NCBI GenBank assembly: GCA_964017185.1
Contig: OZ024869.1
Span: forward strand, 69,472,315-69,536,314
Reading direction: 5' to 3'
Source of the DNA: Rugalucina vietnamica
Lineage: Eukaryota > Mollusca > Bivalvia > Lucinida > Lucinidae
Length of the DNA stretch: 64,000 nucleotides
Made by a program: the position numbers and the translations under genes. The notes beneath the pieces were generated by a model. That model was not told the DNA's origin and ran no database searches. It was given only the letters and a program-made list of their open reading frames with translations. Below are positions 290 to 58,052 of the stretch, piece by piece; position 1 is the first letter of the stretch; every line of letters begins with the position of its first letter.

Positions 290-1680
290 AGTATTACAAC
301 GTATACTGAATACTCTGAAACAGCTGGGCCAATCAAAGCCAAACTTCATGTGGAGCATCCTTAGGATGGGGGAAACGAAAGTTTGTATAAATGGTCCAGG
401 TCACATGACCAAGGTGGCCACCAGGGCTATAAATAGTAAAAACCTTAAAGAATCTTCTTCTCTGGAACCGGTGGACCGATTTCAATGAAACTTGGTATGA
501 ATCATAGGGGACGCCTACCCACCATAGTTTGTATAAATCATGACGTTCGGTTGACCTTGACCTATTTTTTCGCAAGGTCAATTTTGGTCACATATGCTCT
601 TCAATTGAAAAAAGTGAAAGCATTGAATTTTCAGGAAATTTTGAAACCTGTGACCTGAAAGTTGGTAGATACAGACAACTTATTGATTTAATGAAGTGTT
701 GTGAGTATTCAAGGTCAAGGTCATTTCTTTACCTTGGCCAAAGGTCATTCACTTATTGAATTTAAAACTTAATTTTCTCAGAAACCACTAGACTAATCAA
801 AGCCTAACTTCAAGTGAAGCATTCTTAGGAATGAGGAACCAAAGTTTGAGTTAATGGTCCAGGTCACATGACCAAGATGGCTGCCAGGACTATAGATAGC
901 AAAAACCTTTAAAAATCTTCTTCTGTGGCTCCGGTAGACCGATTTCAATGAAACTTGGTATGTAGCATTGCGGACGCCTGCCCATCATAATTTGTATAAA
1001 ACATGACCTTGGGTTGACCTTGGCCTATTTTACCGCAAGGTCAATTTTGGTCACACTGGCTCTTCAATGAAAAAAAAAGTGAAGGCATTGAATTTTTCAG
1101 AAAGTTTCAAAGCATATGACCTGAAAGTTGGAAGATACAGACAACTAATTGATTTAATGAAGTGATGTGAGTATTCAAGGTCAAGGTCAGTTCTTGACTT
1201 GAGCCAAATGTCGTTTACATCTAAAGCTTAATTTTCTCAGAAACCACTTTACTAATCAAAGCCAAACTTCATGTGGAGCATACTTAGGAATGGAAAATCA
1301 AAGTTTGTATAAATGGCCCAGGTCACATGACCAAGACGGCCGCCAGGGCTATAAATAGCAAAAACCTAAAACAAATCTTCTTCTCTGGAACCGATGGATC
1401 GATTTCAATGAAACATACTATGTAGCATCAGGGGCTCTGGCCCATCACAGTTTATATAAATCATGACCTTGGTTGACCTTGACCTAATTTACAGCAAGAT
1501 CAAATTTGGTCACATAGGCTTGTTTAATGGAAAAAGTGAAAACATGATTTTCAGAATGTTTTAAATAAAACCTGTAACCTGTAAGTAGGTAGATACAGAC
1601 AACTTCTAGAGTTAATGAAGTTATTTAAGGTCAAGGTCAATTAGGTCATTTTTCAATCAAAGTCTGTTTCAATTGCTTGA
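290..1680. repeat. Three tandem ~460-bp repeat units rich in AGGTCA
   Basis: Three diverged direct copies can be followed by shared landmarks: a block beginning AACTTCATGTGGAGCA near 343, 806 and 1264; GGTCACATGACCAAG near 400, 860 and 1322; and GATTTCAATGAAAC near 478, 942 and 1402. Each unit carries several AGGTCA or TGACCT half-sites, often as TCAAGGTCA. Short ORFs here are not conserved between units, so the block looks non-coding. Confidence 0.8.
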
Positions 1681-1699
1681 AGATTTCGCGCCAAGCAAA

Positions 1700-2745
1700 A
1701 ACCATTGACTGAAAAAAAAATCATAAAACTTTGTGAATTTAACTCGCAGGAGTCAAACAATGCCAAGAATCATGTATTATCAAAATAACTGTTGCAGAGT
1801 GTCCGACACAAACAACATTCCACAGACCCAAATGGGCATAAATTACAGTATCTGCTCAAACTCAGTAGACCTCATGCCCTCCCCTTGGCACTATGATTTT
1901 CGGGATGGCATTTGTGTCAATATAATTGACTATGGGTGATATCAGGTAAAGTGTCTGGGATCTGATACAAAAGTTACAGGTCAATGTAAAAGTGAGCATT
2001 GAGCTCCCTGTCATAACCAGGCACCATCATGATATTTCAGATAATGTTGACAACAACGTTAAACTCAACAAAGTATCTACTCACAACACTGCAAGTCTGT
2101 TCACACCGAAATTTAGCTAAACGCCCACCAGCTTTTTAGAAAAGCTAATACTTGGTTCGTCACCTATCATGTATTCAATATAGGGATCAACCATGGTTTT
2201 CAGTGTTTTAACACAAGACCGAAGGCAGAAACAAAACAGGGTTGATCGTTTTTCTTGCATTTTGACACTAATTCTTCTTCAAAATAACATTAACAACGTA
2301 AAACCTCACCAAAAACCGCGGAGCTTCTTCAACGTCGGCCATTTTGTTTCTGCGGAACACAGTGACGTCACGTCGCATTGACCAATGAAATTGGCCAAAA
2401 ACCCATGTTCAAACGGCACGTGTATTTAATGATTTATACATGGGTTTCGCTGTTTGAACACGGTTTTCAACCCAATTAATATTCTATTATCTATGCAAGA
2501 ATATGTCATTGAAGCTGACATGCTGCTCAATGATTCTGTGCCCATCGTCGTTATGCGGGTGACGGGTAGAAAATATTAAGTTTTAATGATGTTTTGGATA
2601 ATGCTTGCCGGACTGCTATCTTGACGGAGAAGAGCTAGTCATCTTGGTCTCCATGCGTGTCATCCAGGTGTGTTGTTTTATGTTATGTGATGTCCTGACT
2701 GTGTGTTTTTAAATTCATGTGTACCAATTCTTGTACTTTCTATAT
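1700..2745. other. Unannotated intergenic stretch
   Basis: No convincing gene is visible; the short open frames lack recognisable domains. A small inverted pair, TGTTCAAACGG near 2408 and CTGTTTGAACACGG near 2450, is the only structure I see. Confidence 0.5.
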
Positions 2746-2748
2746 CAG

Positions 2749-3208
2749 TGTCGGGAAACAAAGTCCGTGTATGCTATCGTTTGTGTATAAGTCATACGAC
2801 AGCGCGCGCGTTCGCACTGCCGTTACTTAATTTCGGAAATCGCGCGAAGCCATTTTCATATTAAAGAAAAATGTTTAACACATATCCTATCATATGCGGC
2901 ATTTTATAAACACTAATTAGCAATATTTTCATTCTTTGAAACAATTGTCAACATTTAGAACACTTCGGAACTTAAAAGTTTCCGAAGTGTTCTCAGTGAC
3001 CAGATGGTGAATTGTGAAAGTTTTTACGGTTATACAACCAAAACTGTGTGCGTCATATGATAGGATATTTAAAATATTTCACAAATAACTTACGTGAACG
3101 GTACCACAAATTTTCTGAATTTGGGTTTAGTTCGAACTGCTAAAATTCTCTGTGACGTCACCGTTATGTGTGCAAATGATAGCTTACATGGAGTTTGTTT
3201 CCCGACAG
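2749..3208. mobile_element. Inverted-repeat element (MITE-like) with internal hairpin
   Basis: The left end reads TGTCGGGAAACAAAGTCC and the right end is the inverse complement of TGTCGGGAAACAAACTCC; similarity continues about 40 bp inward. A perfect hairpin built on AGAACACTTCGGAA lies near the centre (2957-2995). There is no coding capacity, so this looks like a non-autonomous DNA element. The transposase family is unknown. Confidence 0.7.
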
Positions 3209-3426
3209 TTTATATTCTTACTTGCACAGGAGCAGTTAGTTGTATGATATTCTAAAAGACAACATTTGAAATTCCTGCTATCTCTGTAGCAGACAATTAT
3301 TCAGTAAATCAAACAGTCATTTAAAGTTGAACTTATACATCAACCTCCAGACTTTTTAAACGTTTCAATTACTTGATATAATGCTTCATGGATTGTATTT
3401 ATGGCGACTGCCTTTAGACATCTGCA

Positions 3427-3666
3427 TGTGAGCTGCATCATGAGAAAACCAACATTTTCCATATACGAAAACAAAGGCGCTGAGGAGCTTCGTAGTAACT
3501 GCGAAGCCGATCAGCGCATTTGTTTTCGCTACACGAATAGTGCATTTCTGTTACTCTCTAAATTCAAAATTTCCAGCCTCTAACCATTTTCAGTGCTTGT
3601 ACAGCTAGGATTGTGCCGGACCTGTTCGGAAATCACATTGTTGATTTTCTTGTGTCACGGCTCATG
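3427..3666 (-). mobile_element. Inverted-repeat element family D, copy 1
   Basis: The ends resemble TGAGCCGCNTCATGAGAAAA and its complement. The core is an imperfect hairpin, with CGAAAACAAAGGCGCTGA facing CAGCGCATTTGTTTTCG (3465-3530). The asymmetric spacer lies on the opposite side compared with copies at 12589, 31151 and 38814, so this copy is inverted. Confidence 0.7.
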
Positions 3667-3669
3667 TCT

Positions 3670-4148
3670 TGATTGTTCATAGTTTGAGCGAGACACGCGG
3701 TCATGAGAAAGTCTGACAGTGTATTGTATGATTTTGGGTCAAATTGCACAAAAAGATCAGAAAAGACGACACTAGGAAAAGTCCACTTGCAATGTGGTTC
3801 CTAAAGATCCGAGATCCGATCTTTGTTGATGTTGTCAAAAATTTCTTTCACAAGTGTGCAAAATAATGTTTCCTATAACGAGGCTAAAGTAGAAAATATT
3901 GTTTCCCAGCGCCATTTGTTTGGTTACAAATTGAATCTAGCATGTTTTCTGTTTATTGTTTACAATAAAATATAAAAGTTTGAACTTTTGGAAGCAGTGA
4001 AAACGTGCAAAGTAGGTAGTATTGACCAAAACTGTTTAAGGGTGTGTTCCCATGAAGCATTTGTTTTTAGTATCAACGCATATCTGAATAACTTTACAAT
4101 GTGCATGCGCATATGCCTGGTTGTAGTCCGGAAACCGAACCGAACGGA
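3670..4148. other. Unannotated intergenic stretch
   Basis: I see no supported gene or repeat boundary in this interval. Confidence 0.4.
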
Positions 4149-4149
4149 T

Positions 4150-4205
4150 CATTACGAAAACATGCCCATGCAATATACATTTCACGGACATGTTTTCCCG
4201 ATGGT
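4150..4205. mobile_element. Minimal deletion derivative of repeat family B
   Basis: Only the two ends of family B are present: ATTACGAAAACATGCCCATG and the inverted ACGGACATGTTTTCC block, directly joined. Full copies at 40 kb and 55 kb carry about 250 bp between these ends. Confidence 0.55.
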
Positions 4206-4429: not shown

Positions 4430-6260
4430 TTTTTGTCAAGTGTGAACACATCTTTGATTTGGAATAAGTTGATCCTAAATTACTTTTTGCGGATCAACTT
4501 TTTATTGAGTATAGACGCATTAGTTTGGTTACCGTACAAGTTATAACTAAATATAAAGTTGATCCAGAACATAATGTTAAGCACCCGAAATTGTGAATAG
4601 TAATCTAGAAAAGAGGACATGATTTCGAACATAGCACACAAGTTAGAATTCAATAAACCTTTTTTCCATGTGTTTATTCATTTTCGTTGCTATATTTGTA
4701 AAAACCCAAATGGAAGATTGTAGACACATTATTCATTAGTCTTGCATGTGAATGATTTTTATAATTAGGTATGGCTGTCCATATCTCAACGGATTAAAGC
4801 CAGTCTATTCCAAAAAATAAGATATTGAATTTCTTTGACATTGGTTTGTAAAGCATTTGTCATGTGCTGTAGATAGCCATACACTCTCAAAGAGATATTC
4901 GTTTTAGTACAAAGCTCTTACATAATTCTCAACTCATTGTCCATGTCTAGAATTTAGAATGCGATTTTATTAATTCATTAAATGCGTCTCTTAGAGGAGT
5001 AGGAACGCATGAGAACAGGAAGTACTATATAAAAATTAGATCCTTTGGAAGCAGTGAAAACGTTCAAAGAGAGATAGTATGGACCACATTGCGCAATGTG
5101 TAATGAACTCTCATTAGGAACCCTTCAAAAACCGGCGACGACAGCCAGAAAAAATATACTGCAATTTCTAAAATTTACTGAAGGGAGGTCTAAATCAAAG
5201 ACATATGTCTGAACGGGGTCAAATAATCAAAACATTGTTTAGAAGACGAAGATGACTCTAAACGAACATTTTAAATACTCTGATTTCTCTCAGTCATCCC
5301 AAAAGAAAAATATGCAGACCATTTCAAAATATCTGTATACGAGGATCGGCCAAATATACTTCTCCTAAAAAAAATTCCGGTCACCCAATTGGTTGTCAAC
5401 CACCCAACAAATAAAAATATTTTTTTTTCTTTTGTCAGTTAAATTATTCTTGACAAAATCAAATGTATAAAGTGTATATGCATACAGTGTTGTATGCATA
5501 CAGTGTACGTCTATTGCTCTTTCTCGAACGCCAATATTCTATGGAAGATAGGGTACAAATGGGTGGGGTATCTAGTAGGTCATTCCATTCTTATGCCTCG
5601 CCCATGCTTGCTGCCTCCAGATAAAAATGCAGTGTAGACTCCTCTGTATTGTAAACACAAAGCTACACGCCTTGTATTCAGGGGTCGTGGATTTGATCTA
5701 GGGTCTCTACAGGTTTTTGGAAGAAGGATCAAGCATGCTCTATCTCAGTACGACAGTATCTGTTTGTAGGCTGTAAATCCATCCAATTGATTTGGAATAA
5801 AGTTTTGAAGGGCATGGCCATAGTAAGCAAGTCAATAGAAAAATATGAAGGATGCTAACAAGTGTTACAATTCTTACAACTTTAGGTGACCGGATTTTTT
5901 TTGAAGAAGAGTATAGTTCTGCCATAGGTGTGATAAAGTGTTAATAGTCATGATAGGCTGTTGTATTATACATTGATTTAAAGGGCTATATTTATTCCTT
6001 ATGACGATATCAAAATCATGTGACAAAAGAAGTAAATCGTTCGAATTTTTCGCGGTGAAACACATGGGATGTTACTACTCCCATGCATTTGTGAATCTAG
6101 TTGTATGTGTTTCATGTATTATATATTTATAACTACTCATCGCATTTTCTTCAACTTTATTGTGATACATAATGTTATATTAAGAAAAGCAGTTTACCAG
6201 AAATTCTCGTCATCAATGCGCTGCTGAATGTATAACAAGGCGGTATTATAAATAAAAATT
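4430..6260. other. Unannotated intergenic stretch
   Basis: AT-rich DNA with scattered short open frames lacking domains. The short direct repeat TGTATGCATACAGTGT occurs at 5475-5505. No gene is supported. Confidence 0.5.
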
Positions 6261-6336
6261 AAACAAGGCGGTATTATAAATAAAAATTAAAACTGAAATC
6301 CTTTAAGAGCAGTGAATATATTAATAATAAAGGGCT

Positions 6337-6380
6337 GGGTCATATCGCGGTTTCGGCTACTCAAGCCTCATCAGTGACCC
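6337..6380 (-). ncRNA. Hammerhead ribozyme motif, array copy 1
   Basis: On the minus strand: stem I GGGUCA pairs with UGACCC; core CUGAUGA; stem II GGCU/AGCC closed over UGAGU; core GAAA; then CCGCGA, and cleavage dinucleotide UA. All catalytic core positions match the type I consensus. The short stem III segment differs by one base from the self-complementary CCGCGG of copy 3. Confidence 0.8.
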
Positions 6381-6709
6381 TTTAGATTTGGCAACATGGA
6401 GCCAAAGGGAATAACTGTAAATTTGATACTTTCAAGAGGGTAGTCAACACAAAGACAAGTATTATCCAAATGGGGCCAAATACATTAAAACGTTGGTTAC
6501 AAAATGAATCTAAACTGATAATTTCTGATTCCTCAGAATATCTTCGCTAATCTCAAAGGACCAAAAGGAAAATATAACCTGCACTATGGATGATGTACGG
6601 GGAGACTTTTTAGGGTCGCCACACGGCACAACACCAGCTGCAGTAATAGCAAATAAAAATTAAAACTGAGATCATTTAAGAGCAGTGAAAATATCAATGA
6701 GAAAAGGTT

Positions 6710-6753
6710 GGGTCATAACGCGGTTTCGGCTACTCAAGTATCATCAGTGACCC
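6710..6753 (-). ncRNA. Hammerhead motif, array copy 2 (stem II damaged)
   Basis: Stem I GGGUCA/UGACCC and both core blocks (CUGAUGA, GAAA) are present. The 5' strand of stem II reads AUACU instead of GGCU, so stem II cannot form fully, and the segment before the cleavage site is altered (CCGCGUUA). Probably inactive. Confidence 0.65.
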
Positions 6754-7071
6754 TTTAGATTTGGCAACATGGAGCAAAAGAGAATAACTGCTAATTTGAT
6801 ACTTTCAAAAGGTTAGTCAACACAAAGACTAGTATTATCCAAATGGGACCAAATACATTAGAAAATGAATCTAAACGGATACATTTCTGATTCCTCAGAA
6901 TATCTTCACTGAACTCAAAGGACCAAAAGGAAATTATAATCTGCACTATGGATGATGTACGGGGAGAGGTTTTAGGGCCGCCGCACGGCACAACATCAGC
7001 TGCAGTAATAGCAAATAAAAATTAAAACTGAGGTCAATTCAGAGCAGCGAATGTATTAATGAGAAAGGTCT

Positions 7072-7115
7072 GGGTCATACCGCGGTTTCGGCTACTCAAG
7101 CCTCATCAGTGACCC
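7072..7115 (-). ncRNA. Hammerhead ribozyme motif, array copy 3 (canonical)
   Basis: This is the best copy. Stem I is GGGUCA with UGACCC (6 bp); core CUGAUGA; stem II GGCU/AGCC over UGAGU; core GAAA; self-complementary CCGCGG serving as a very short stem III; then UA, giving the cleavage triplet GUA (predicted cut between plus positions 7078 and 7077). A self-complementary stem III is typical of minimal hammerheads thought to act as dimers. Activity is a prediction. Confidence 0.85.
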
Positions 7116-7441
7116 TGTAGATTTGGCAACATGGAGCCAAAAGGAATAACTGTAAAGATACTTTCAAGGGGGTAGTCCACACAAAGACTAGTATTATCCA
7201 AATGGGGGCAAATAAATTAAAACGTTGGTTAGAAAATGAAACTAAACTGATAAATTTCTGATTCCTCAGAATATCTTCGCTGATCTCAAAGGACCAAAAG
7301 GAAAATATAACCTGCACTATGGATGCTGTACGGGGAGACGTTTTAGGGCCACCGCACGGCACAACACCAGCTGCAGTAATAGCAAATAAAAATAAAACTG
7401 AGATCCTTTAAGAGCAGTGAATATATTAATGAGAAAGGGCT

Positions 7442-7485
7442 GGGTCATACCGCGGTTTAGGCTACTCAAACCGCATCAGTGACCC
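7442..7485 (-). ncRNA. Hammerhead motif, array copy 4 (core mutated)
   Basis: Stem I is retained, but the core reads CUGAUGC instead of CUGAUGA and the second core block reads UAAA instead of GAAA. Essential residues are lost, so this copy should not cleave. Confidence 0.6.
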
Positions 7486-7815
7486 TTTAGATTTGGCAAC
7501 ATGGAGCAAAAGGGAATAACTGTAGATTTGATAATTTCAAAATAGTAGTCAACAAAAAGACTAGTATTATCCAAACGGGGCCAAATACATTAAAACGTTG
7601 GTTACAAAATGAATCTAAACTGATAAATTTCTAATTCCTCAGAATATCTTCGCTGATCTCAAAGGTCATTAAGGAAAATATAACCTGCACTATGGATGAT
7701 ATACGGGGAGACTTTTTAGGGCCGCTACACGGCACAACACCAGCTGCAGCAATAGCAAATAAAAATTAAAACTGAGGTCATTTCAGAGCAGTGAATATAT
7801 TAATGAGAAAGGGCT

Positions 7816-7859
7816 GGGTCATACCGCGGTTTCGGCTACTCAAGCCTCACCAGTGACCC
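7816..7859 (-). ncRNA. Hammerhead motif, array copy 5 (core A6 changed)
   Basis: Stem I, stem II and the CCGCGG segment are intact. The core reads CUGGUGA where CUGANGA is required, so the conserved A is a G. Predicted inactive or strongly impaired. Confidence 0.65.
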
Positions 7860-7944
7860 TTTAAATTTGGCCACATGGAGCCAAAGGGAATAACTGTATA
7901 TTTGATACTTTCAAGAAAGTAGTCAACGCAGTTACTATCTATTA

Positions 7945-8175
7945 CAGGAAACTGGCGTAAATAAGTCGAAATTTCGAGATAGTAAGTCGCAATTTCGCGT
8001 TACTAAGTCTACATTTCGAGATAATAAGTCGAAATGTCGAGAGTAAGTCGAAATTTCGAGATAATAAGTCGAACTTTCGAGATAGTCAAGTCGAAATTAC
8101 GAGTTACTAAGTCGAAATTTCGAGTTACTAAGTCGAAATTTTGAGTTACTAAGTCGAAATTTCGACTCGAAATTT
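7945..8175. repeat. Tandem ~20-bp repeat built on CGAAATTTCG
   Basis: About eleven units of AAGTCGAAATTTCGAG followed by ATAAT or TTACT are present. The core CGAAATTTCG is palindromic. The block lies in an insertion that interrupts the last unit of the hammerhead array. No coding potential is seen. Confidence 0.85.
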
Positions 8176-8683
8176 CAAAATTTAAAAAAAAAAAAAATTA
8201 CCTGGCCCTCAGTCACGCGCTACTGTGTGACTGCTAAAGCGAGTTAAGGGAACAAATTAATTTTTATTCGTCCAAAATCTTCAGCTGTTGAGATTTTTCA
8301 TACGCTTGGCGCGCGTTTGGGTTATACGCTATAGTGTGACTGCTTAGAAAATGAATCTAAACTGATAAATTTCTGATTTCTCAGAATGTCTTCGCTGATC
8401 TCAAAGGACCAAAAGGACAATATAACCTGTACTATGAATGATGTACGGGAAGACTTTAATATTTTATAAAGAAGGTTGACCATTTCTATTTACAAATGCC
8501 TATGGTTTTTGGAAAAACAAAACGCTAGCCATCTGTCTTCTTATGTACAGGTAAACTTCCCTGAATTATGCACTATTGGATAATAGAATTTGTTTTCCAT
8601 GTCCCGTGCCACAGGATCTGAATTTGGGGCTAAAACAGTCAAGTTTTGTATTAAATATATAGTAAATATGAAAATGTTTTATA

Positions 8684-8796
8684 GAGTATCGTCCCCCCCC
8701 CTGAGAACCAACAAAAGCTTTAGCATGTATATGTGTTGCCATGTATTGCACAATATATGAAAATGTCGTGTTGGTTCTTTGGGGGGAACGATACTG
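8684..8796. mobile_element. Short inverted-repeat element (~113 bp)
   Basis: The ends GAGTATCGTCCCCCCCC...GAGAACCAACA and TGTTGGTTCTTTGGGGGG...CGATACTGT are inverse complements over roughly 30 bp around a small AT-rich centre. This is probably a MITE; the family is unknown. Confidence 0.6.
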
Positions 8797-15309: not shown

Positions 15310-15421
15310 TTAGGCAGCAAATAAAATTTAAACTGAGATCCTTTAAGAGCAGTGAACATATTAATGAGAAAAGGGATGGGCCATACCGCGGTTTCGACTA
15401 TTTAAGTCTCGTCAGAATTTT
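15310..15421 (-). ncRNA. Isolated hammerhead-array fragment with covarying stem II
   Basis: 15310-15377 matches the AT-rich linker of the 6.3-8.5 kb array. At 15378-15421 (minus) the core CUGACGA and GAAA are present, followed by CCGCGG and UA. Stem II is GACU/AGUC instead of GGCU/AGCC, a compensated base-pair change. The 5' strand of stem I is replaced at the truncation point, so this copy is a relic. Confidence 0.65.
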
Positions 15422-15719: not shown

Positions 15720-16918
15720 AATATAGTTACTGGAAATTTAAAAATAATTTCGGATTCTAGAATTCGCAAAATTGTTTCTAAAGGTCCGAAATATAGATTC
15801 CCTTCCTACATTAATTTCGACAAATGTAGAGAGGAGATTGCATCTGCATTAAATGATTTCGGTAATCGATGGTGTAAACGAGAGGGTGTTGAGGATAATG
15901 CTCTTAAAGAATGGAAAAGAAGTATCTTCACTATCGTGGATAAACGTATTAAGTTTTATTCACAAAATACTAATCTTTTACCTCCTAAACCCAAATCGTC
16001 ATTTAGGCATTTGAAGCAGGGTATCCAAGAATTTCATAGAAAGTATGTCTTGGTTCCGGCAGACAAAGCCGCAAACAATGTTGTTGTCGTTTGTAGGCTT
16101 CACTACGTTAACACCTTAAAACAGGAGCTTGATGGTACCAGAGCTTATCTGGAGACAGATACTGATGAAGTGTCTGTAGTTAATGCCCACTTAAACGATT
16201 TACCTGTTAAGTTTTCTGTTTGTGTCAATGAAGGCCAAGACAAACTTCCTACGATGTATTGGTTACCTAAGCTTCACAAAAGACCATACAAAGCTAGATT
16301 TATTGCAAATTCTAGCTCTTGTACTACCACTGAACTTTCTAAATTATTAACTTCCTGTCTTACTGCTATCAAATCTCATGTTATAAGATACTGTGAGACA
16401 GTGTATGAAACTTCAAATAAAAATTGGTTTTGGTCAATAAAAAGTTCTGGTGAGGTGCTCAGTAAATTGAAGTGTAGAGGGTTCCGTGCGACAAGCTTGT
16501 CCACGTATGATTTGTTTACTCTGTATACAACATTACCACATAATCTAATAAAAGAAAAACTTCTGGATTTGATAGAGTGGACCTTCAAAAGGGCATTAAA
16601 AAACTATGGTTCACTTTATTTGGCATGTAATGACAGAAAGGCTTTTTTTTCACTTCCTCTGACCAAAGTCGGTATACACTTTGGTCATGTCAGAATGTGT
16701 GCGACGCCTTGTCCTATCTCCTTGATAATATTTATATTAGATTTGGGACCAAGTTATACAGACAAATTGTTGGAATTCCGATGGGTACAAATTGCGCACC
16801 TCTCGTAGCTGATTTATTTTTATACTGCTACGAAAGAGATTTCATGGATTCTCTTAACCATGATAATCAAGCTGATGTTATCGAGGCTTTTATCGAGGCT
16901 GTGAGTCCTTGTTTTTGA
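15720..16918 (+). pseudogene. Reverse transcriptase (Penelope-like), frameshifted and truncated
   Basis: The frame is open from just after the stop at 15717 with no ATG; the segment has lost its true start. Recognisable blocks are VPADKAANNVVVV (the DK-type N-terminal motif seen in Penelope-like RTs), YWLPKLHKRPYKARFI (RT motif 2), LSTYDLFTLYTTLP (motif A region, with the expected D) and IVGIPMGTNCAPLVADLFLY (motif B). A one-base change in the T-run at about 16642-16650 shifts the frame between motifs A and B. The reading then ends a few residues after ADVIEAF, before the catalytic YxDD of motif C. No GIY-YIG endonuclease is present. Penelope-like assignment is by motif style; confirmation needs a tree. 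Confidence 0.75.
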
Positions 16919-17375
16919 TTCATCAGGATGTTTATCATGATTTATTTGTTTGTTCTTGATGATTCATTGACTAGTTAGAGATTCACCACGAGGACCGAAG
17001 AACTTTCTAAATGTTATGAACCACTGCAGAAGCTGAGGGTGAGGTTAGGATCCTGTAAAACCGGTTTAAGCCCGCCAGTAACTTTGTGTTACTGATCGTT
17101 CCAAGGCGATACTTCTGTGGTGGTTCTTTTTGTTTTATGTCTTGGTGTTTAAAAAAATTTTTGTGCTGTTGGCGCCTTATGTATGTTTTCATATTTTTAA
17201 TTAAGTTAAGGTAACTGAGTGGCCACCTATTGGGAAAATAGCTGCTCATTCGGCTTACGATATGTTTCATGGTATAAGAGCCTGATTGTTACTTTGGTTT
17301 TTTCCCACCTCGGTTTTTGGAGTGGGAATCTCTTTCTGATTGCGCCTTTTCCTGATCTTTGCCTACTTGTACCTT
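16910..17375 (+). repeat. Repeat family A, copy 2 (3' end of RT element)
   Basis: Non-coding 3' region of the insertion, with GTGAGTCC, GATTCATTGACTAGTTAGAG, GTAAAACCGGTTTAAGCCC, TTGGCGCCTTATGTATG and a terminal CCTACTTGTACCTT. The other copies lie at 9.9, 19.8, 29.2, 39.3, 49.4, 52.0, 53.0 and 63.0 kb. Confidence 0.85.
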
Positions 17376-17381
17376 TTCAAA

Positions 17382-18339: not shown

Positions 18340-18509
18340 TAGTTTGATCAATTATTCGTTAATTCTGCTTTTCATTTTCAATAATCGATCTTTTTTCTAT
18401 GCTTGTATTCATATAAATTATTATTTATTCAATATAATACATGTATGAGATTATCTTAAAACTGAATTTGCCTGATTTGTGGAAATAATACACAGTTCAA
18501 TCAAGCAAT
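18340..18509 (+). promoter_or_regulatory. Upstream block conserved between the two Rab-like copies
   Basis: GATCAATTATTCGT, CAATAATCGATC and a TGATTTGTG...CAAT(A)ATGG end recur in the same order upstream of the second copy (30305-30473). The block probably contains the 5' UTR and proximal promoter duplicated with the gene. No TATA box can be fixed with confidence. Confidence 0.45.
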
Positions 18510-19408
18510 ATGGCACAAAACTCTACAGGAATATCCACTGAACAGCAACAGTCGAAAGAATACTTATTCAAAGTTATAATTACAGGAGACAAAGCGACGG
18601 GGAAAACGTGTTTGCTCCGTAGTTTCGTGCGGGACGAGTTTTCGGAAAAATATGTTACCACCACTGGGGTAGACTTCATGGCTAAGGAAATTACTAAGGA
18701 GGATAAAACAGTTAAACTGCAGATTTGGGACAGAGGGGGGGCAGGAGCGGTAAGATTATTTTACGAATACATAAAGGTTAAAATAGTTTATTGCCTTTTC
18801 ATACATATATCTACAGCAATGTGGTCTGGTCACATGTTTTCTCGACATTAGTTACGGCCCTTCCCCTATAAGTACTAGTATAAAGCTTGTGCTATTTTGT
18901 ATGCTCTAAAGAATAGTAAATTAGAACAATCATACATACAATACATAAAAAGAAAGGGGACTCACCCAAATTATAATGATGATGGTAGACAAGTCTATTC
19001 AGTACACATGCATATTAGTTAATTAAGTCCATGAGATTTATACGAGTTAAATAATATCTTTTCAGGCCTAGTAAAGTTACAAACGCATACTATAGGGGAG
19101 CAGCTGGTGTAATTATTGTATTTGACGTTACGAACAGAGACACATTCACGAACGTCGAGACCTGGTTTGATTCTGTGTCCAAATATAGTACAGAGTCCCT
19201 TAGCGTTGTCCTTGTTGGGAACAAAACTGACCTTACTGAGAGACAAGTCACTCAGCAGGAAGCACAGTGTGTAGCGGAGAAACACGGAGCCCCCTATACA
19301 GAAGTGAGCGTGAGTGATAAAATCAATATCAACGAACCGTTTGTCAAACTGACTGAGAAACTTTTGCAACCGAAGGGACCAAACATACCATGGTGGAAGA
19401 AAACTTAA
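18510..19408 (+). pseudogene. Rab-like small GTPase copy 1, frameshifted at the G3 motif
   Basis: Exon 1 (18510-18749) encodes a start MAQNS, P-loop GDKATGKTCLL (GxxxxGKT), switch I TTTGVDF and then WDRGGAGA before the donor GTAAGA. Exon 2 starts at 19066 after TTTTCAG and encodes NAYYRGAAGVIIVFDVT, NKTDL (G4) and a C-terminal PWWKKT. Compared with copy 2, one extra G in the seven-G run at 18735-18741 changes the frame: with six Gs the exon would read WDRGGQE and join exon 2 in phase, whereas as written the splice product hits TAG at once. So it is either a pseudogene or a homopolymer error in the assembly. The DTAGQE motif is also altered at DT to DR. The full reading would be about 193 aa. 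No C-terminal cysteines. Confidence 0.75.
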
Positions 19409-30304: not shown

Positions 30305-30473
30305 ATGTAGATCAATTATTTGTAAGTTCTATTTTGATTTCCAATAATCGATCAGTTTATTTCCCCGTGCTAGTATTCAGATTATATACGTCAATTGATA
30401 TTTAGTCACTTTCATAGATGTATGCAGCTATTTTAAAAGCTGGATTCGTCTAATTTGTGTTAAATCAAATAAT
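30305..30473 (+). promoter_or_regulatory. Upstream block conserved with Rab-like copy 1
   Basis: GATCAATTATTTGT, CAATAATCGATC and the ATAATATGG start context match 18340-18509. It is a putative 5' UTR or proximal promoter retained after gene duplication. Confidence 0.45.
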
Positions 30474-30712
30474 ATGGCACAAGACTCTTCAAAAATAACC
30501 ACCGAACAGCAACAGTCATACGACTACTTGTTCAAACTTCTAATAATAGGAGACAAAGCGACGGGTAAATCATGCTTACTCCGTCGTTTCGCACAGGACG
30601 TGTTTTCGGAAGAATATGTTGCGACTATTGGTATAGACTTCATGATTAAGGAAGTGACTATAGCGGGGAAAACGGTGAAACTGCAGATGTGGGACACAGC
30701 GGGACAGGAACG
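30474..30712 (+). CDS. Rab-like small GTPase copy 2, exon 1
   Basis: Encodes residues 1-79 plus two bases of codon 80. MAQDSSK starts the frame in the same context as copy 1. The P-loop is [14 protein letters not shown] (Rab-type GDxxxGKS, residues ~23-36), the switch I/G2 region [10 protein letters not shown], and the G3 motif WDTAGQER, with the intron after the second base of the Arg codon (donor GTACGA). The frame continues open past the donor into a TCTG microsatellite, which is intronic. GTP-binding motifs are intact, so a GTPase switch in membrane traffic or signalling is likely, but the partner is unknown. Closest in style to Rab8/10/1-type proteins; the subfamily is not determined. 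Confidence 0.85.
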
Positions 30713-30728
30713 GTACGATTTTTCTGTT

Positions 30729-30755
30729 TATCTGTCTGTCTGTCTGTCTGTCTCT
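30729..30755 (+). repeat. (TCTG)n microsatellite next to splice donor
   Basis: About six TCTG/TCTC units begin 16 bases after the intron 5' end of Rab-like copy 2. Confidence 0.8.
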
Positions 30756-30925
30756 CTCTGGCCTCCCGCTCCCTCATTCTCTCTGTCAGTATCTCTGTTA
30801 CAACTATCGGCTAAAAGGAAACTACAGATTTGTAAAGTTATTCTTTTATTATTCTAATTTTGATGAGCTGCTGAAATTCAGTTTCAGCTGAGAGTAGTAC
30901 AAGATTATTGTAAAACAATTACTCG

Positions 30926-30928
30926 TAT

Positions 30929-30963
<35 letters not shown>

Positions 30964-30966
30964 TTT
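30926..30966 (+). repeat. (ATTT)n microsatellite
   Basis: About ten ATTT units within the intron of Rab-like copy 2. Confidence 0.95.
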
Positions 30967-31150
30967 TCTGTCCTGCATATATATGTACAAAATGCATTTC
31001 TAAGCTTTAAGAATAATAAATTATTATCTGATGTCAACGGCAGTTCCAAAAGGCATTTGTCTTCTTTGTAAGACATATACAAACACTAAAGCTCAGGACC
31101 AGACGTTACACGTCGTTCCATTTTGACTATTTTGTTTGCGTTGAAGAATT

Positions 31151-31392
31151 ATATGAGCCGCGACGCGAGAAAACCGGTCTTCGGGTTTTCCGACCAGGTC
31201 CGACACAAACCGGCCTGTACAAGCTCAGAAAAGAGCTAGAAGCTTGAAATTTTGGATTTAGAAAGAAGAGGAATTGTTCTATCCGAGTAGCGAAAACAAA
31301 GGCGCTGATCAGCTTCGCGGTTACCGCGAAGCTGATCTGCGCCTTTGTTTTCGCCTAGGCAAAAATCCGGTTTTCTCATGACGCGGCTCATA
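31151..31392 (+). mobile_element. Inverted-repeat element family D, copy 3, in Rab intron
   Basis: The ends are ATATGAGCCGCGACGCGAGA and the inverse of ATATGAGCCGCGTCATGAGA, immediately bounded by AT. The core hairpin pairs CAAAGGCGCTGATCAGCTTC with GAAGCTGATCTGCGCCTTTG around CGGTTACCG (31298-31352). This is a well-preserved copy and explains about a third of the intron length. Confidence 0.85.
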
Positions 31393-31501
31393 TAAAAATG
31401 AAACAAAGTTTAACTCAAAACCTTAAAATGAAAGTACACTCACCCAAGCTAAAGATGTGCAAGTTTTTATTCATTACATGCGAGTAAATATTTTTTTTCA
31501 G

Positions 31502-31853
31502 GTTTAGAAACATTACGAACGCATACTACAGAGGCGCAGCTGGCGTGATTATCGTGTTTGACGTTACTGACAGAGACACGTTGAAGAACGTCGAGACCTG
31601 GTTTGATTCCGTGTCAAGATACTGCACAGAAACAACGATCGCGGTCCTTGTTGGGAACAAAGCAGACCTTACGGAGAGACAAGTCAGCCATGAGGAGGCA
31701 CAGGCAATAGCTGAGAAGCACGGGGTCCCTTATGTAGAAGTTAGCGTGAGGGATAACAGCAATGTCAACGAACCTTTCATGCAACTGACTAAGAAAATGT
31801 TACAATGTAAGGGAACGAACTTACCTTGGTGGAAGAAAACGAACTTTGAATAA
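31502..31853 (+). CDS. Rab-like small GTPase copy 2, exon 2
   Basis: The acceptor TTTTTTTTCAG precedes G-TTT-AGA, completing the Arg codon and giving ERFRNITNAYYRGAAGVI, the Rab switch II. FDVTDRD, NKADL (G4, NKxD) and VEVSV (G5-like, weaker than the usual ETSAK) follow. Total length with exon 1 is 196 aa, normal for the family. The C-terminus PWWKKTNFE has no cysteine pair or CAAX box, so prenylation is not expected; this is shared with copy 1 (PWWKKT). Membrane attachment, if any, must occur differently, or the protein is cytosolic. AATAAA overlaps the stop (31849-31854) and occurs again at 31952. Confidence 0.85.
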
Positions 31854-35792: not shown

Positions 35793-37153
35793 ATGGGGTG
35801 CCGTTTTACTATTTATTCCCTTTTTATGGATATCCATAATTCATTTTGGATATCCAAAATTCATTTCTGGATACTTAAAATCGATTTATGGATATCCTTA
35901 ATTCGTCTGACTATTGGATATCCATAAATTGATTTTAGGATATCCTAAAATCGAACTATGGATATCCTAAAATACAATCCTATTTTTGGATATCCATAAT
36001 TCGATTTAAGGATATTATAAAATCGGGCTAATATTGGATATCCATAATTCGATTTATGGATATCCATAAATGAGTTATTGATGTACTTCAATAGAACTGT
36101 ATTTTAGGATATCCATAATTTAAGGATATCCTTAAATCACAAAAAATGATGTACGTGCCTATGGGTGCCATTTTACTATTTTTTCCCTATTTTTGGATAT
36201 CCATAATTCATTTATGGATATCTTTTATTCATTTATGGATATCCTTAAATAATTAAGGATATCCATTAACATTTCTGGATATCCTAAAATGAATTATGGA
36301 TATCCATAAATCAATTATGGATATCCATAATAATTATGGATATCCTGAAATGAATTATGGATATCCTGAAATGAATTATGGATATCCTTATTTTTGTTCG
36401 ATATCCAAAATTTATTTTTGGACATCCACAATTCTTTTTTGGATATCCATAATTCATTTTGGATATCCTAAAATCAATTTAAAGATATCCTAAATTCGTC
36501 TGAATATTGGATATCCATAAATAGATTTAGCATATCCTAAAACCGAACTAAGGATATCCTAAAATACAATCCTATTTTTGGATATCCATAATATTGGATA
36601 TCCATAATTCGATTTATGGATATCCATAAATGAGTTATGGATTTCCTTCAATAGGACTGTATTTAAGGATATCCATAATTCATTTAAGGATATCCTTAAA
36701 TCACAAAAAAATGATGTACGTGCCTATGGAGTGCCGTTTTACTATTTATTCCCTATTTTTGGATATCCATAATTTATTTAAGGATATTCATAATGTTTTT
36801 ATGGATATCCTTAATTCATTTATGGATATCCTACAATAATTAAGGATAAATCGAATTATGGATATCCAATATTAGCCCGATTTTAGGATATCCTTAAATC
36901 GAATTATGGATATCCAAAAATAGGATTGTATTTAAGGATATCCATAATTCGATTATAGGATATCCTAAAATCAATTTATGGATATCCAATATTCAGCCGA
37001 ATTAAGGATATCCATAAACCAATTTAGGATATCCAAAAAAGAATTATGGGTATCCAAAAATATATTATGGATATCCAAAAATGAATTTTGGACATCCAAA
37101 AATGAATTATGGATATCCATAAATAGGAAATAAATAGTAAAACGGCACCCCAT
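35793..37153. repeat. GGATATCC palindromic satellite block with inverted ends
   Basis: Dozens of copies of the palindrome GGATATCC recur about every 20-24 bp, usually as TATGGATATCCATAATTC or AAGGATATCCTTAAAT. The block is bounded by ATGGGGTGCCGTTTTACTAT at the left and its inverse complement at 37134-37153. Two internal copies of TGCCNTTTTACTATTT (36166 and 36731), each after GATGTACGTGCCTATGG, mark a higher-order period of about 0.56 kb. Open frames here (runs of MDIHNSF-like residues) are a by-product of the repeat. Confidence 0.9.
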
Positions 37154-37289
37154 ACGTGCCTACGGGATATAATGATTTCTCCCTAGTCATCCGGTGTGGT
37201 TGAATTTACGTTGGCTTCCGTTTCGTTCAGTTTAAGTTAGCGCATGCGTATTACACGGAAAAAATCATTATGGAAAAGAAATATTTTTG

Positions 37290-37770
37290 AAAATGAATTA
37301 TGGATATCCTAAAATCGAATTATGGATATCCTTAAATCAGATCATTATGGATATCCAAAAAAAGAATCATGAATATCCAAAAATCGAATTATGGATATCC
37401 TAAATTCAAGCTTATTTTTGGATATCTTAAAACACATTTAAGGATATCCTTAAATGAGCTGATTTAAGGATATCCATAATTCGACTTTTGGATATCCAAA
37501 AATCGAATTATGGATATCCATAATTCATCATGATTTTTGGATATCCAAAAATTTATTTCAGGATATCCATAATTCAATTACGGATATCCATAATTCATTT
37601 AAGGATATCCATAATTCATTTATGGATATCCATAATTCATTTTAGGATATCCAAAAATATTGATGGATATCTTTAATTATTTTAGGATATCCATAAATGA
37701 ATTAAGGATATCCATAAATAAATTATGGATATCCATAAATGAATTATGGATATCCTTAAATAAATAAATT
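37290..37770. repeat. GGATATCC satellite block 2
   Basis: Continues the same GGATATCC units at ~21-bp spacing after about 135 bp of unique DNA. It lacks the TGCCGTTTTACT boundary motif on its right side. Confidence 0.9.
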
Positions 37771-47602: not shown

Positions 47603-49183
47603 TCACATCATGCTTATTTCATTCGCGGTGAAGTTATGCGATATGCGTCGACAGATAATGATAAGGCTAACAGATAAAAAGATACACAGGATTGAATTGA
47701 ACACAATGAAAACGACCAAAGATGTTCCTGTGTCGTAGCCAAAGTATTCAGATAACCATGTAATCAGATTGAGAAAACAGAAACATAAATACATTGGTTT
47801 ATACTCTTTGTTTTTGGGGCTATCGTGGTTATCTTGATTGTGTCTTTTCTCTTTTCCATAAAAGCTCGTAATCACACTGTACACGGTGACAACAGAAGCG
47901 ATCCCAAGCGGAACAAGGAAAGAAATAATACGGTGAAAATCATCAGCAATAAAACACATTGTCTTCCAAGATCCATGACCAAGTTCACCAACATTACTAT
48001 AATGAACAGAGAAACATGCTGACATTGCAACTAGTGCAGAGGCAATGAGATGTGGCTTCAGAATTGACATGATAATGTTTCGCCAATAAACGACGGGTAT
48101 CGTGAAAGTAGGTGACGGCGATGAAAGTTTTACCGGCATACTGGCAATAAATTGAACAGATAGAGATAGAAAATGGACACACAATCCTACAACAGAGCAA
48201 GCCGCTCCTGATACAGAGAGGATTATAGAAATCAGAAGTAAAATCTGAATCAGTTGAAGATTGATAACCAGCTGAAGATTTTTAATTTTTACCGCCTTTG
48301 GAAGTTCTTTACAAAGACACAGTGCTACAATCGCTGATGTTAGAAATGATACATCTACAAACAAACCTAGAAATGACGTACCTTTGGTTAGACTTATCTG
48401 ATTCTTATTTCCTTCTTTGAAATCTGTGGAAGATTTTTGATCTTTTGTTGCTGAACTTGCCTCAAGTTGAATAAAGTCGTCAACGCAAATGCGAACATTG
48501 TTATCAATATCAACGATAAAGTCATATAAATACTTCCCCCTAGATATGACCAAAATTCTGCTACCGTCTGCGGTGTTTTCAGGGATGATTTCACTGCGTT
48601 CAAGTATGACCTGTTCACAAAATGTGACTTTACTGATGTGAACATCATACGTAGTGGGACAGATACTTAATACATCTGATTGAGGTTTAAATACGGTATG
48701 AGAGGTCGGCATTTTCGCGATATGATTCGGAAACTTATAAACCAGATACAATTGGTCATCTAGTGCTGAGTGATAAAGCACTAAACAGACATCCAATTTC
48801 TGCCCCTTTACGCTTATTGCTATAGGAACGTGCATCAGGTTCCGCATAAGCTCATAGAATTTGTCGGTTAAAATGTCGTGAAGCTGAATATTTGCTGTAT
48901 ACAATGCAATAACCGGAGTTGATTTTGCATCGTTAACATACTGTATATAATGCTGTCCGAAGCACCAATACAGTCCGTTGTCTTTCATTTTAGTCTTCAT
49001 CATGTCAAAGAGATTGTCAACCTCTGTTTTGTTTTGAAGATCAACCAGGTCGCCATTGTCCACCGATCGAAGCTGGAAGACTACCTGCATGGTTACTTTA
49101 TTCATGATCTTGACGAATTGCACACAGTGACCTTTTGCGTCTCTGTATGACCCGATAGGACACAGAATGTTCTCACACAAGCC
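47603..49183 (-). CDS. 7TM receptor (adhesion/secretin-like), exon 2
   Basis: The acceptor TTTGTCCATTTCAG precedes GGC at 49183, and exon 1 ends on a full codon, so the two join in phase 0 (NTK then GLCEN). The exon encodes 526 residues: CENILCPIGSYRD and further extracellular sequence with paired cysteines to about exon residue 260, then seven hydrophobic segments near 270-292, 303-325, 327-347, 368-390, 414-440, 463-482 and 487-510. Conserved-looking pieces are KNLQLVINLQ (TM2), CSVVGLCVHFLSLSVQF (TM3) and HGSWKTMCFI before TM5. The arrangement matches class B/adhesion-like receptors of molluscs, which often lack a canonical GPS; I see no clear HL/T cleavage site. Ligand unknown. An internal Met in the adjacent intron would extend the frame upstream but is not needed. 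Confidence 0.85.
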   Translation of the reverse strand, partial: GLCENILCPIGSYRDAKGHCVQFVKIMNKVTMQVVFQLRSVDNGDLVDLQNKTEVDNLFDMMKTKMKDNGLYWCFGQHYIQYVNDAKSTPVIALYTANIQLHDILTDKFYELMRNLMHVPIAISVKGQKLDVCLVLYHSALDDQLYLVYKFPNHIAKMPTSHTVFKPQSDVLSICPTTYDVHISKVTFCEQVILERSEIIPENTADGSRILVISRGKYLYDFIVDIDNNVRICVDDFIQLEASSATKDQKSSTDFKEGNKNQISLTKGTSFLGLFVDVSFLTSAIVALCLCKELPKAVKIKNLQLVINLQLIQILLLISIILSVSGAACSVVGLCVHFLSLSVQFIASMPVKLSSPSPTFTIPVVYWRNIIMSILKPHLIASALVAMSACFSVHYSNVGELGHGSWKTMCFIADDFHRIISFLVPLGIASVVTVYSVITSFYGKEKRHNQDNHDSPKNKEYKPMYLCFCFLNLITWLSEYFGYDTGTSLVVFIVFNSILCIFLSVSLIIICRRISHNFTANEISMM

Positions 49184-50316
49184 CTGAAATGGACAAAGAA
49201 TCAGAAGAAATATCAATGAAGTGACTCACACACCAATGCAGGATTTTATACAACTGATATCCGTGTTTATTTCTATCTGTACATGTAGTATTTAAAGTAT
49301 CATTATACGTTAAATCGTATAGGATATAACTTAAATCTAATGCGATAGTCTGCATGCTTAATTTTTAACCCAGTCATGGTTGGTAACTATGCTTCCTTCT
49401 TTAATTGCACGGCGGTGGGTCGGGCGTCAGACCCTATGATGACACCGACTTAAAGCTATTCACTTTAGTTGATTGGGGTCGGAGCTTCTTGTCTGTTGCT
49501 TGGCCCACCGGGGTTCAACGTTTTTTTTGGATCCAGTTTTACAAAAACTTGTTTAGCGGCCAGGGATTTCCGTCGCCGGACAACTTACTGTATCTGTGAG
49601 TCCTCGTTTTTGATTCATCATAATTTATTTGTTTTTCCTTTTTATTTATTTTTTTTGATTCATTGACTCATTGACCATTCAGAGATTCACCACAAGGATT
49701 GGACAACTAACTAAAATGTGAACCACTGCAGAAACTAAGGATGATGTTAGGCGCCTGTAAAACTGGTTTAAGCCCTCCAGTATTTTTATATTACTGATCG
49801 TGCCAATTTCTGTATTGGTTCTTATTTATGTTTTGGTTTAATTTATTTTTGTCCCACATTGGGTTTTGGAGTGGCAATTTCTTTTCTTATTGCGACATTT
49901 CCTGATCACTGCCTACTTTTTCTTTTACAGATGGATCCCGGATTGTTTTGTATTCTGAGTAGACCATCCATACACGAGAAGTACAGTAATGCCAATTGAA
50001 ATTCTCAATAAGATTTTTCAATGGTTGTTATGCACGTCGATAATGATTTAGAAAGCTTAGTTAATAATGGTTTTGAGTTTGATTTGTCTTTTCATAAAAT
50101 TATTGAAATGCTTATTTACATCATGTTTATATAGCAAAAATAAACTATTGAAAATAAATTAACAAGAAAGTTCAATGACAATGTTCGTTTGCTTTGTGTT
50201 TTACGTGTTTGGGACGGATATTTCTGTTAGTAAGAACACAAGCTTAAATCAGACAATATTGTAGGTTTGCTTTGCTTTGTTTTCCTTGCAAATGAATAGA
50301 AAACTTAGTCATTTAC
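49184..50316 (-). other. Receptor intron with repeat A insertion
   Basis: GT (GTAAAT on the minus strand at 50316) to AG (at 49184), 1133 bp. Nearly half is repeat family A copy 6, inserted antisense to the gene. Confidence 0.8.
49407..49945 (+). mobile_element. Repeat family A, copy 6, inside receptor intron
   Basis: This long version includes the 5' segment GGTCGGAGCTTCTTGTCTGT, TTGGCCCACCGGGGTTCAAC, then CTGTGAGTCC, GTAAAACTGGTTTAAGCCC and the usual 3' end CCTACTTTTTCTTTT. The middle TTGGCGCC...CGGCTTACG segment is deleted. Confidence 0.75.
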
Positions 50317-51918
50317 CTTCGTATTATCCAGAATCTGATAGTCACCACATGTGCTATCGTTCCCCTCTAGTGACCTGGTCATCTCTGAGACGGGCGTTAT
50401 CGCGTCTTCATCTGTATAAGAGAGCATTGTGGTAAAGCTATCTAAGAACTGGCCAATTTCTGTGCAGAACTCCGGTACAGCAGTGTTCCGTTTACTGTTG
50501 CAAAGGTAACAAAATACATTTGCAAATACTGTTGGCTTCCTGTGCTTGTCAAATATATGTTTTTCGATGTAAGGGAATCTAAGTTCTTTACAACCCTGTT
50601 CTATCTGTTCATCATAAAAGTCCCATTCTCCAGCTATATTGCACGCATCAACATCGATCTTATAGCATTCTTGAATAAGGTCTCGATATTGCGCTGGCGG
50701 TTTGTATACAGTGTCACAATGACCATTTTGAATAGTGTCATGTATGTCCTCGTATGTTTGACCCACAAAGCCGCCACAATATTCGATGCGATCCCAATGA
50801 ACAAAATCGACGTCGGACTCATCATTGCATTCGGCGTATTTCGAGTTATAGTATGTAATATTCGTGGCTTTCGAGAAAACAGGAGATAGCTTATACTTCC
50901 AAGAATCATCCTTAGGCTTGCTGTTTTGCATCATAGGAAGAGGCCCAAATAAGGCAAATTCTGGAATTTGACATGTCCTTACAATTTTGTAAGTTTTGTG
51001 GTTTGACACCTGTTTTCCCGGCAATTCTCGTTGCACATGTAAACATTCCGGTCTACTCCCAACATAATTTGCTTTAGTTCCGTTTCTGAAACAACAATTA
51101 TCACCACAATCATGTGCACAGGAGCATGCCCTACAGCATGTGTTTTCTTGAGTGGACTTTTCGCAAATGTTCGTATAAGGGCATACATTTGTTAATCGCG
51201 ACAAATAGCCAATCGATTGTGAGACGGTCGCACTTTCAGAATCATTTACCTGTGCAAGAATATCACCATTCGGCGTTCTTAAACTTGTCACTTCTCTCGA
51301 CACATTAGGATTCAAGTCAGATTTATGGCATTTGGGTTGCCCGTCTACGGCATTTTCTGTTGTCCAACACTGAAAGCTGTTGGAAGTGATTGCTACACTG
51401 TGTTCATTATTTAAATCTCCACTAAAGGATTGTTCTGAAGTGTTCGCATCATTGGTGAATCGAACTTTATTTGGATTTTCGGTAATTGAGAGTTCTGCTG
51501 GAAAATGACTGTTTAGGAATCGAACGTTCTCGTCAGTTTTGACGCTGGGCAAAGTTGTTTGGCTATTCACTTTTGACCCTTCTGTGTACAGTCTGGCTAG
51601 TGTTGAATGTTCTGTCAACGCTATTTTCTCGGTAGCTTTGGTGTTAGGTATATTCAACTTACTTCCCTGTGGATCAACTTTTGTGACGTCGGTAAGAATC
51701 ACAGAGTCAGTGGCTATGGTTGAAGGTAGCCCGTCTTTGGTTGCTGAATAAGTACCGGACAGAGTAACTGTTGTGCTTGTGGTCATACTCTTTTGAGTTA
51801 TTTGCGCACCTGTTCTCGGTGTCGTGTGGGCCTTTGGCCATATTATTTGAACGGTACACAATACAACAGTGAAACGCCAGACAAACGACAAACTAGAAAC
51901 CCGCTTTCTCGGTGACAT
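50317..51918 (-). CDS. 7TM receptor, exon 1: extracellular Ser/Thr- and Cys-rich region
   Basis: 534 codons from ATG at 51918 to AAG before GTAAAT. The N-terminus (MSPRKRVSS, then FVWRFTVVLCTVQIIW) looks like a signal peptide. Residues ~30-240 are Thr/Ser-rich and low-complexity, suggesting a glycosylated stalk. Residues 245-277 hold a dense cysteine cluster, CPYTNIC...CCRACSCAHDCGDNCC, like a somatomedin-B-type module. Residues 360-490 have further paired cysteines, with VFANVFCYLCNS, a YCxxCN-type motif common in this receptor style. The gene is thus a secreted-ectodomain receptor joined to a 7TM domain in exon 2 (total 1060 aa). The upstream 180 bp and first ~40 codons are duplicated at 55712-55900. 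Confidence 0.85.
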
Positions 51919-52029
51919 ATCTGAAATACAAGATCACGTAACATCGAGTTTCGGAAAACGTTGCTTATATTATCTTCGGTTTGAAATATTTAAGAAGATT
52001 TCTCAATATGTATGTTTTTATATTTTTAA

Positions 52030-52652: not shown

Positions 52653-52980
52653 CTAGAGATAGGAAAATACAAACTGATTGCAAGCAATCCTTGAAGATCG
52701 GAAAAATAAGAGCATTAAATGGATGTACGGGGAGACTTTTTAGGGCCGCCACTCGGCACAACCACAAAAACTCTGATATATAAAGATAGAGATAGGAAAA
52801 TACAAACTGATTGCAAGCAATCCCTGAGGATTGGAAAAATAAGAGCATTAAATGGATGTACGGGGAGAGTTTTTAGGGCCGCCACATGGCACAACCACAA
52901 AAACTCTGATAAAATACAAACTGATTGCAAGCAATCCCTGAGGATTGGAAAAATAAGAGCATTAAATGGATGTTACTGAG
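52653..52980 (-). repeat. Tandem ~135-bp repeat sharing a block with the hammerhead array
   Basis: Two and a half units of GATAGGAAAATACAAACTGA, GCAAGCAATCC and AATAAGAGCATTAAATGGAT, then GTACGGGGAGAC/GTTTTTTAGGGCCGCC. The last block also occurs in every unit of the 6.3-8.5 kb array, in the same orientation relative to the hammerhead and repeat A sense strand. Confidence 0.75.
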
Positions 52981-58014: not shown

Positions 58015-58052
58015 GCCTCTGAAGAAGCCGAAAGGCGAAAGCGCGCTCAGGC
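58015..58052 (+). ncRNA. Hammerhead motif, palindrome 2 right arm
   Basis: Inverse copy of 57390-57427 with identical core and stems; its 3' side again faces the outer end. Confidence 0.65.

Follow-up and report, generated by a model that had tools for sequence, protein, structure and literature searches.

The closest described relatives of the locus reported here are the retrozymes of the mussel Mytilus galloprovincialis, which, according to the accessible text of their description, are built as tandem units of 350-390 bp with type I hammerhead ribozymes (HHRs), of which about 5000 were counted (PMC7229834). The same text describes circles of the mussel retrozyme, leaves the mobilizing enzyme open and regards Penelope-like elements (PLEs) as strong candidates (PMC7229834). 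One PLE, PAc of Anolis, has been studied in vitro, where reverse transcription initiates at an internal site and depends on RNA located 3' of it; the genomic ends of PAc match the start sites of its reverse transcriptase (RT), and the PLE studied prefers AT-rich DNA (PMC11167929).

The sequence analyzed here, referred to as the window, is a stretch of 64,000 nucleotides from the lucinid bivalve Rugalucina vietnamica. It contains a tandem array that is an ordinary member of this known kind, namely one old, decayed and mostly dead insertion. What deserves work is the evidence pointing to a particular PLE as the copier of this family, by way of a signal that both carry, and the new part concerns how the copies were made, with a fixed internal 3' end and a sequence module that is common to a PLE. 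We put the probability of this main reading, in which a co-resident tandem PLE would copy the retrozyme by means of a shared 41-nt module located 3' of the RT start and the array in the window would be a decayed insertion, at roughly 70%.

Units of about 370 bp occupy positions 6278-7930 on the minus strand, as delimited by TRF and unit matches, and their RNA-sense 3' terminus is 6278 (TRF, 6278-7927: period 373, 4.5 copies, 88% matches). A detached piece of a unit at 8341-8457, also on the minus strand (91% over 117 bp), forms the RNA-sense 5' end, and the two parts are separated by a stretch unrelated to the unit (7931-8340), which holds a 21-bp minisatellite at 7962-8165. The initial annotation had drawn one array from 6266 to 8460; unit sequence was recovered in the two parts just named, and 7931-8340 has no unit match. 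Its five minus-strand motifs with spacings of 373, 362, 370 and 374 bp were all found again, at the coordinates given below. A single 5'-truncated retrozyme copy, identified by unit match and devoid of the 5' arm of helix I, lies at 15323-15415 on the minus strand. Animal non-LTR retrozymes are recognized by type I HHRs in tandem repeats of 150-450 bp and by a GC content under 45-50%; the array and its family show the former, and the GC content at 6001-8000 is 0.377. Further traits of this class are circular RNA of unit length and, where target-site duplications occur, a length of these above 4 bp. TRF also reports a 28-bp tandem duplication at 6234-6291 that straddles the junction at which the array ends in RNA sense (3').

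Elsewhere in the window there is a 463-bp tandem repeat at 331-1621 (2.8 copies, 82% matches), a long array of short repeats at 35822-37765 built on the palindrome ATGGATATCCAT, and two related Ras/Rab-like genes at 18489-19408 and 30399-31853, each in two exon-like pieces. Two long open frames on the minus strand, 47603-49225 and 50305-51933 (540 and 542 codons), have no Pfam match, and by eye the first of them resembles a membrane receptor.

The five HHR motifs, all on the minus strand, are preserved to different degrees. Copy 3 (7072-7115) is intact, with the predicted cut between 7078 and 7077; it fits a full type I descriptor that had no match in 150 Markov-1 sequences of 64 kb with the same dinucleotide make-up, and it thereby bears out the full hammerhead consensus claimed for it, as the only intact copy of the five. 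Copy 1 (6337-6380) had been credited with an intact core, and its nine core bases are indeed kept, but one helix III pair is lost by a C.A in place of C-G and the triplet is AUA. That the other three copies are damaged was confirmed: copy 2 (6710-6753) lacks two pairs of helix II as well as one of helix III, copy 4 (7442-7485) has two core changes and copy 5 (7816-7859) has one. With only one of five HHRs intact, no unit is flanked by functional ribozymes on both sides, and release of unit-length RNA is not expected from this array.

Covariance models gave a different picture. Rfam returned no hammerhead at gathering level for the whole window or for nine further loci of the family, and a search of 5900-8700 at E<=10 returned no hammerhead and 14 other families, each under its gathering score. 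This covariance search, which the initial annotation had named as a check on copies 1 and 3, hence went against it, although such a model may or may not detect animal HHRs with so short a helix III. We therefore call the motif hammerhead-like by its core and helices, not by Rfam, and its self-cleavage is a prediction from sequence.

At the level of the genome the motif belongs to a large dispersed family. The HHR pattern has 12,184 matches (6031 + 6153) with at most two mismatches in the 1.09-Gb assembly of 47 contigs, and the reversed control has none. Among 100 listed places, all exact matches and all on contig C1, the helix II pair that the pattern leaves free was judged by eye as Watson-Crick in 96, G.U in 2 and mismatched in 2. 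Two samples of loci were drawn from this family. Sample 1 was obtained with a whole-unit query and comprises 39 further loci and the window (40 of 6411 candidates scored), from which three loci with shared flanks (L012, L034, L022) were dropped to leave 37 insertions; sample 2, for which a 116-nt query yielded 2508 candidates and 40 of these were scored, comprises 20 loci. RNA positions are given as q numbers, where q1 is the first base past the predicted HHR cut, on a 370-nt unit for sample 1 and on a 373-nt consensus for sample 2, so that the two scales differ by about 1 nt toward the end.

The type I features, that is a CUGANGA and GAA core with three helices and an open helix I, were found in copy 3 and, by the rule for intactness used here, in 60 of the 82 junctions of the 37 sample-1 loci. 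Covariation was assessed on 37 distinct gap-free variants, after 11 of 48 with gaps had been dropped. In these, 95.6% of the pair cells were standard, compared with at most 46.2% when the partners were slid, and 12 cells were changed on both sides, compared with 4.3 after shuffling; neither the count of pairs with changes on both sides (2) nor that of further pair types (7) exceeded the shuffles. One helix II pair is GC in 23 of the 37 variants and AU in 11, but the AU form is one subfamily, so that few events stand behind the covariation. The truncated copy at 15323-15415 provides a compensated change within the window, with GACU/AGUC instead of GGCU/AGCC in helix II. Taken together, the intact junctions and the covariation indicate that the HHR of the family is probably under constraint. 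Six minimal HHR-like motifs were also seen in the window at 56545-58685, in three inverted pairs (56545 minus/57172 plus; 57400 minus/58019 plus; 58376 minus/58662 plus); four of them have GCC/GGC as helix II and the other two GGC/GCC, which makes the swap a compensated one, and we take these motifs to resemble the minimal HHRs of PLEs.

The family fits the animal retrozyme class, and the retrozyme reading is well supported. That reading had been given for the array alone, where it is weaker with one of five HHRs intact; it stands for the family, on the basis of the dispersed HHR units, the helix II compensation and the retro-type ends.

It is these ends that speak most directly about the mode of copying. 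In sample 1 the last main piece stops at q60-67 in all 40 loci and at q63-65 in 35 of them, the elements ending at ...ATTTTTATT(T) and the DNA beyond being unrelated between loci. In sample 2 a terminal unit is present in 17 of the 20 loci and ends at q61-73, at q61-68 in 15 of the 17. Pooled over the 37 + 17 insertions, all 3' ends lie 60-73 nt past the HHR cut and 52 of 54 lie at 60-68; exceptions are an upstream piece of L031 that ends at q82, a separate piece of L063 that ends at q53 and a 74% piece that follows the end in L032. The 5' ends, on the other hand, scatter over the unit in both samples. One 3' end with scattered 5' ends means that reverse transcription started from a single internal site, some 64 nt past the HHR cut. 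A satellite propagated by unequal exchange and by copying at the DNA level, reverse transcription playing no part, would account for the tandem organization, and shared flanks do identify some loci as DNA-level duplicates (L011/L012/L034; L018/L022). However, the same 3' end is found at unrelated flanks on many contigs, the 5' ends are scattered and there are single units with an overlap, so that a simple satellite was rejected and we consider this explanation very improbable.

Some clustering of the 5' ends was noted, with 14 of 37 in q1-50 in sample 1 (scan p 0.010) and 6 of 17 in q106-140 in sample 2 (scan p 0.08), and with a pooled scan p of 0.195 it is only suggestive. This count leaves out the flank duplicates L012, L034 and L022 as well as L061, L068 and L077, which extend beyond the fragment; L031 and L079 were counted by their second piece and L072 by its first, and the extra pieces of L031, L032, L042 and L063 were omitted. 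A consistent target-site duplication was rejected, since a repeat of at least 4 bp was present in 15 of 40 loci and in 627 of 1560 (40%) mismatched-pair controls; one clear 9-bp repeat was seen at L015. An AT-rich target was likewise rejected (0.654 vs 0.635). By eye, one retrozyme copy (L014) has flanks that read as an RT open frame of the PLE family, that is, it would lie inside the presumed helper.

The link to a PLE came from a unit match near 52.7 kb of the window, where a module of 41 nt, corresponding to q83-123 of the retrozyme unit, was first met. In the array, this module is found on the minus strand at 6592-6632, 6954-6994, 7325-7365 and 7698-7738 (1, 3, 4 and 2 differences from the reference, respectively), and in PLE-derived sequence it is found, again on the minus strand, at 52722-52762 and 52855-52895 (1 and 2 differences). 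The latter two are part of 133-bp repeats of PLE origin at 52.65-52.91 kb, around which the PLE 3' region is arranged in two orientations (52030-53152, with 52030-52511 minus and 52979-53152 plus). The match between PLE and retrozyme covers 39 bp in the same sense, with E 2.5e-10, and the module is present once per PLE tandem unit (L058) in the retrozyme RNA sense. In both elements it lies 3' of the end, at a distance of 18-19 nt in the retrozyme and 17-18 nt in the PLE.

In a comparison of 27 loci, each represented by one unit, the module diverged by 3.3%, against 7.2% overall, and 8 of 373 windows along the unit had an equal or lower value; the HHR half was conserved below average (rank 288), because two subfamilies differ there. 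The module has 8,939 matches in the genome with at most three mismatches, and none in the reversed control. In a non-random sample of 15 inspected places, which are exact matches from one end of contig C1, the module is continued by retrozyme sequence at 14, some of it divergent, and by PLE sequence at one. A specially stable module hairpin was rejected, as the isolated module folds no better than shuffles in four module-holding stretches (z -0.05 to -0.90).

Both elements end in or just past a T-run, and the 3' end of the RNA could be formed by termination there, through Pol III or otherwise, with another RT such as that of a LINE priming at the end and the module being an inherited promoter or remnant. 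In multi-unit arrays, transcription would then have to pass these same T-runs unit after unit, and the retrozyme ends, which in most loci are at q63-65, lie beyond the T4 and T5 runs. Moreover, priming at the end does not explain that the elements share a module 17-19 nt beyond the end and not the end sequence itself. We think that such termination is unlikely to be the source of the fixed ends, and prefer an internal start set by the shared module.

The PLE is present in the window as a fragment on the plus strand at 15720-17377, with a partial RT open frame (to 16808, beyond it in another frame) followed by the 3' untranslated end and the 3' terminus at 17377. All 72 PLE copies scored, of 34,210 candidates, were at 99% identity, and a 640-aa open frame is present in 70. 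Tandem copies occur at four places with a period of 4223-4227 bp (unit 4226 bp). For the last 201 nt, 68 BLAST matches in the examined loci, not all of them independent, were followed: 54 leave the element at its fixed 3' end, 8 stop earlier or are cut, and 6 read through, all of these in tandem copies and partly overlapping.

In the copy L060 the frame at 822-4124 reads through if three in-frame UGAs are taken as selenocysteine, and a SECIS element scores 37.4 bits against a gathering threshold of 35 at the end of this frame (4102-4169), so that the element may be a retroelement encoding a selenoprotein. A GIY-YIG domain (PF01541) scores 17.8 bits against a cut-off of 22.6 on the N-terminal piece of 292 aa and is absent from the result for the complete UGA-read frame. 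PLEs are characterized by a telomerase-like RT and a GIY-YIG endonuclease. The YLDD motif and the motif A residues are nearly invariant in 38 RT relatives. Pfam RVT_1 had no hit on the PLE open frame, and among further RT relatives nothing was above cut-off except an RVT_1 elsewhere in P0155. Sequence searches of the PDB with the RT gave one chance-level hit (E 0.041) and, in a second search, none; an NCBIfam search led nowhere. After a first structure model of the RT had been discarded for a pLDDT of 32.5, a model with pLDDT 62.1 had telomerase as all of its top 12 PDB matches, the best at E 3.4e-3 and none at E<=0.001. Minimal HHRs have been reported for PLE repeats, and the HHR descriptor had no match in the PLE copies L060 and L055. 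A sub-threshold twister-P1 was seen in the PLE untranslated region at L060 209-273 and 4435-4499 (20.8 bits, gathering 67.2, E 0.72). Naiad-type PLEs have an N-terminal endonuclease and contain selenocysteine. The PLE found here may belong to this group, which it would fit by its N-terminal GIY-YIG segment, three UGAs and SECIS. With no HHR match in its repeats, we call the putative partner Penelope-like in a broad sense.

A mechanism can be proposed on this basis. Live members of the retrozyme family would make multimeric RNA that is cut by the HHR into units of about 370 nt, which are probably closed into circles. The PLE RT would recognize the 41-nt module in this RNA and start copying 18-19 nt upstream of it, at the U-rich site about 64 nt past the HHR cut that is read from the insertion ends. 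From there it would run toward the 5' side, often beyond one unit, and leave tandem copies with scattered 5' ends, and the PLE itself would be inserted in the same way. Because copying begins 5' of the signal, every insertion ends in a unit without the module, and consequently a lone linear unit would not be copied again, as only circular or tandem RNA supplies the signal. The PLE would escape this loss by tandem transcription and the retrozyme by HHR-made circles, the missing signal being supplied anew by tandem RNA in the former and by circular or multimeric RNA in the latter.

An alternative concerns the circle in this scheme. The PLE could copy the retrozyme from a linear multimeric transcript, with the HHR playing no part in mobility, and indeed HHR mutants leave insertion unaffected in vitro in the one PLE studied (PMC11167929). 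Also four arrays with young units (L033, L041, L044, L047) each have a unit elsewhere at a distance of 1.1-1.3%, so that young arrays are not separated from the rest, as a linear template would permit. Against this stand the conservation and compensation of the HHR and, in the accessible text on the mussel, circles as the main form (PMC7229834). At L016 four units are 1.8% apart, whereas the nearest unit elsewhere, among the units compared, is at 6.5%, as expected from one recopied circle, but local duplication fits equally. The nearest neighbor was within the own array for 22 of 32 units, which does not prove a circle, and five units folded as circles exceeded the stability of their shuffles, 40 per unit (z -1.8 to -3.7). 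Scans of viral contigs for the HHR, the 41-nt module and the RT gave no match. The data presented here fit both templates; we regard the linear one as the less probable and retain HHR-made circles as the more probable.

Compared with the known systems, the retrozyme described here is like that of M. galloprovincialis, as far as the accessible text of that study goes, in its tandem units with type I HHR, low GC content and thousands of copies, in the lack of any coding sequence found and in the presence of PLEs in the same genome (PMC7229834). It differs by description in that neither a fixed internal 3' end nor a module shared with a PLE is given in that text (PMC7229834); the accessible portions of PMC7229834 and PMC7761336 and related titles and abstract openings hold neither feature, which may be published elsewhere. 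PAc of Anolis is alike in its tandem arrangement, the internal RT start, the requirement for 3' RNA and the genomic ends at the start (PMC11167929). PAc, however, has a C-terminal GIY-YIG domain and an HHR (PMC11167929), whereas the PLE here has a weak N-terminal GIY-YIG segment and no HHR was found in it, and the putative signal here is short and common to a non-autonomous element.

There is also a parallel among other retroelements. SINEs share the 3' end of a LINE, and here too a non-autonomous element seems to rely on an RT signal taken from an autonomous one. The difference is that the signal shared by SINE and LINE is within the inserted 3' end, whereas the module described here is beyond it.

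In more general terms, retrozymes could be parasites of tandem, probably selenoprotein-coding PLEs by way of a module 3' of the RT start, with both elements needing to travel as multiple units, a generalization for which we see even odds. If true, it would explain jointly why the PLE and the retrozyme are both tandem and why the retrozyme keeps its ribozyme. A shared module at matched distance from both RT starts points to one definite mobilizing partner. The module also defines an RNA for tests with purified RT, and it suggests why the ribozyme persists.
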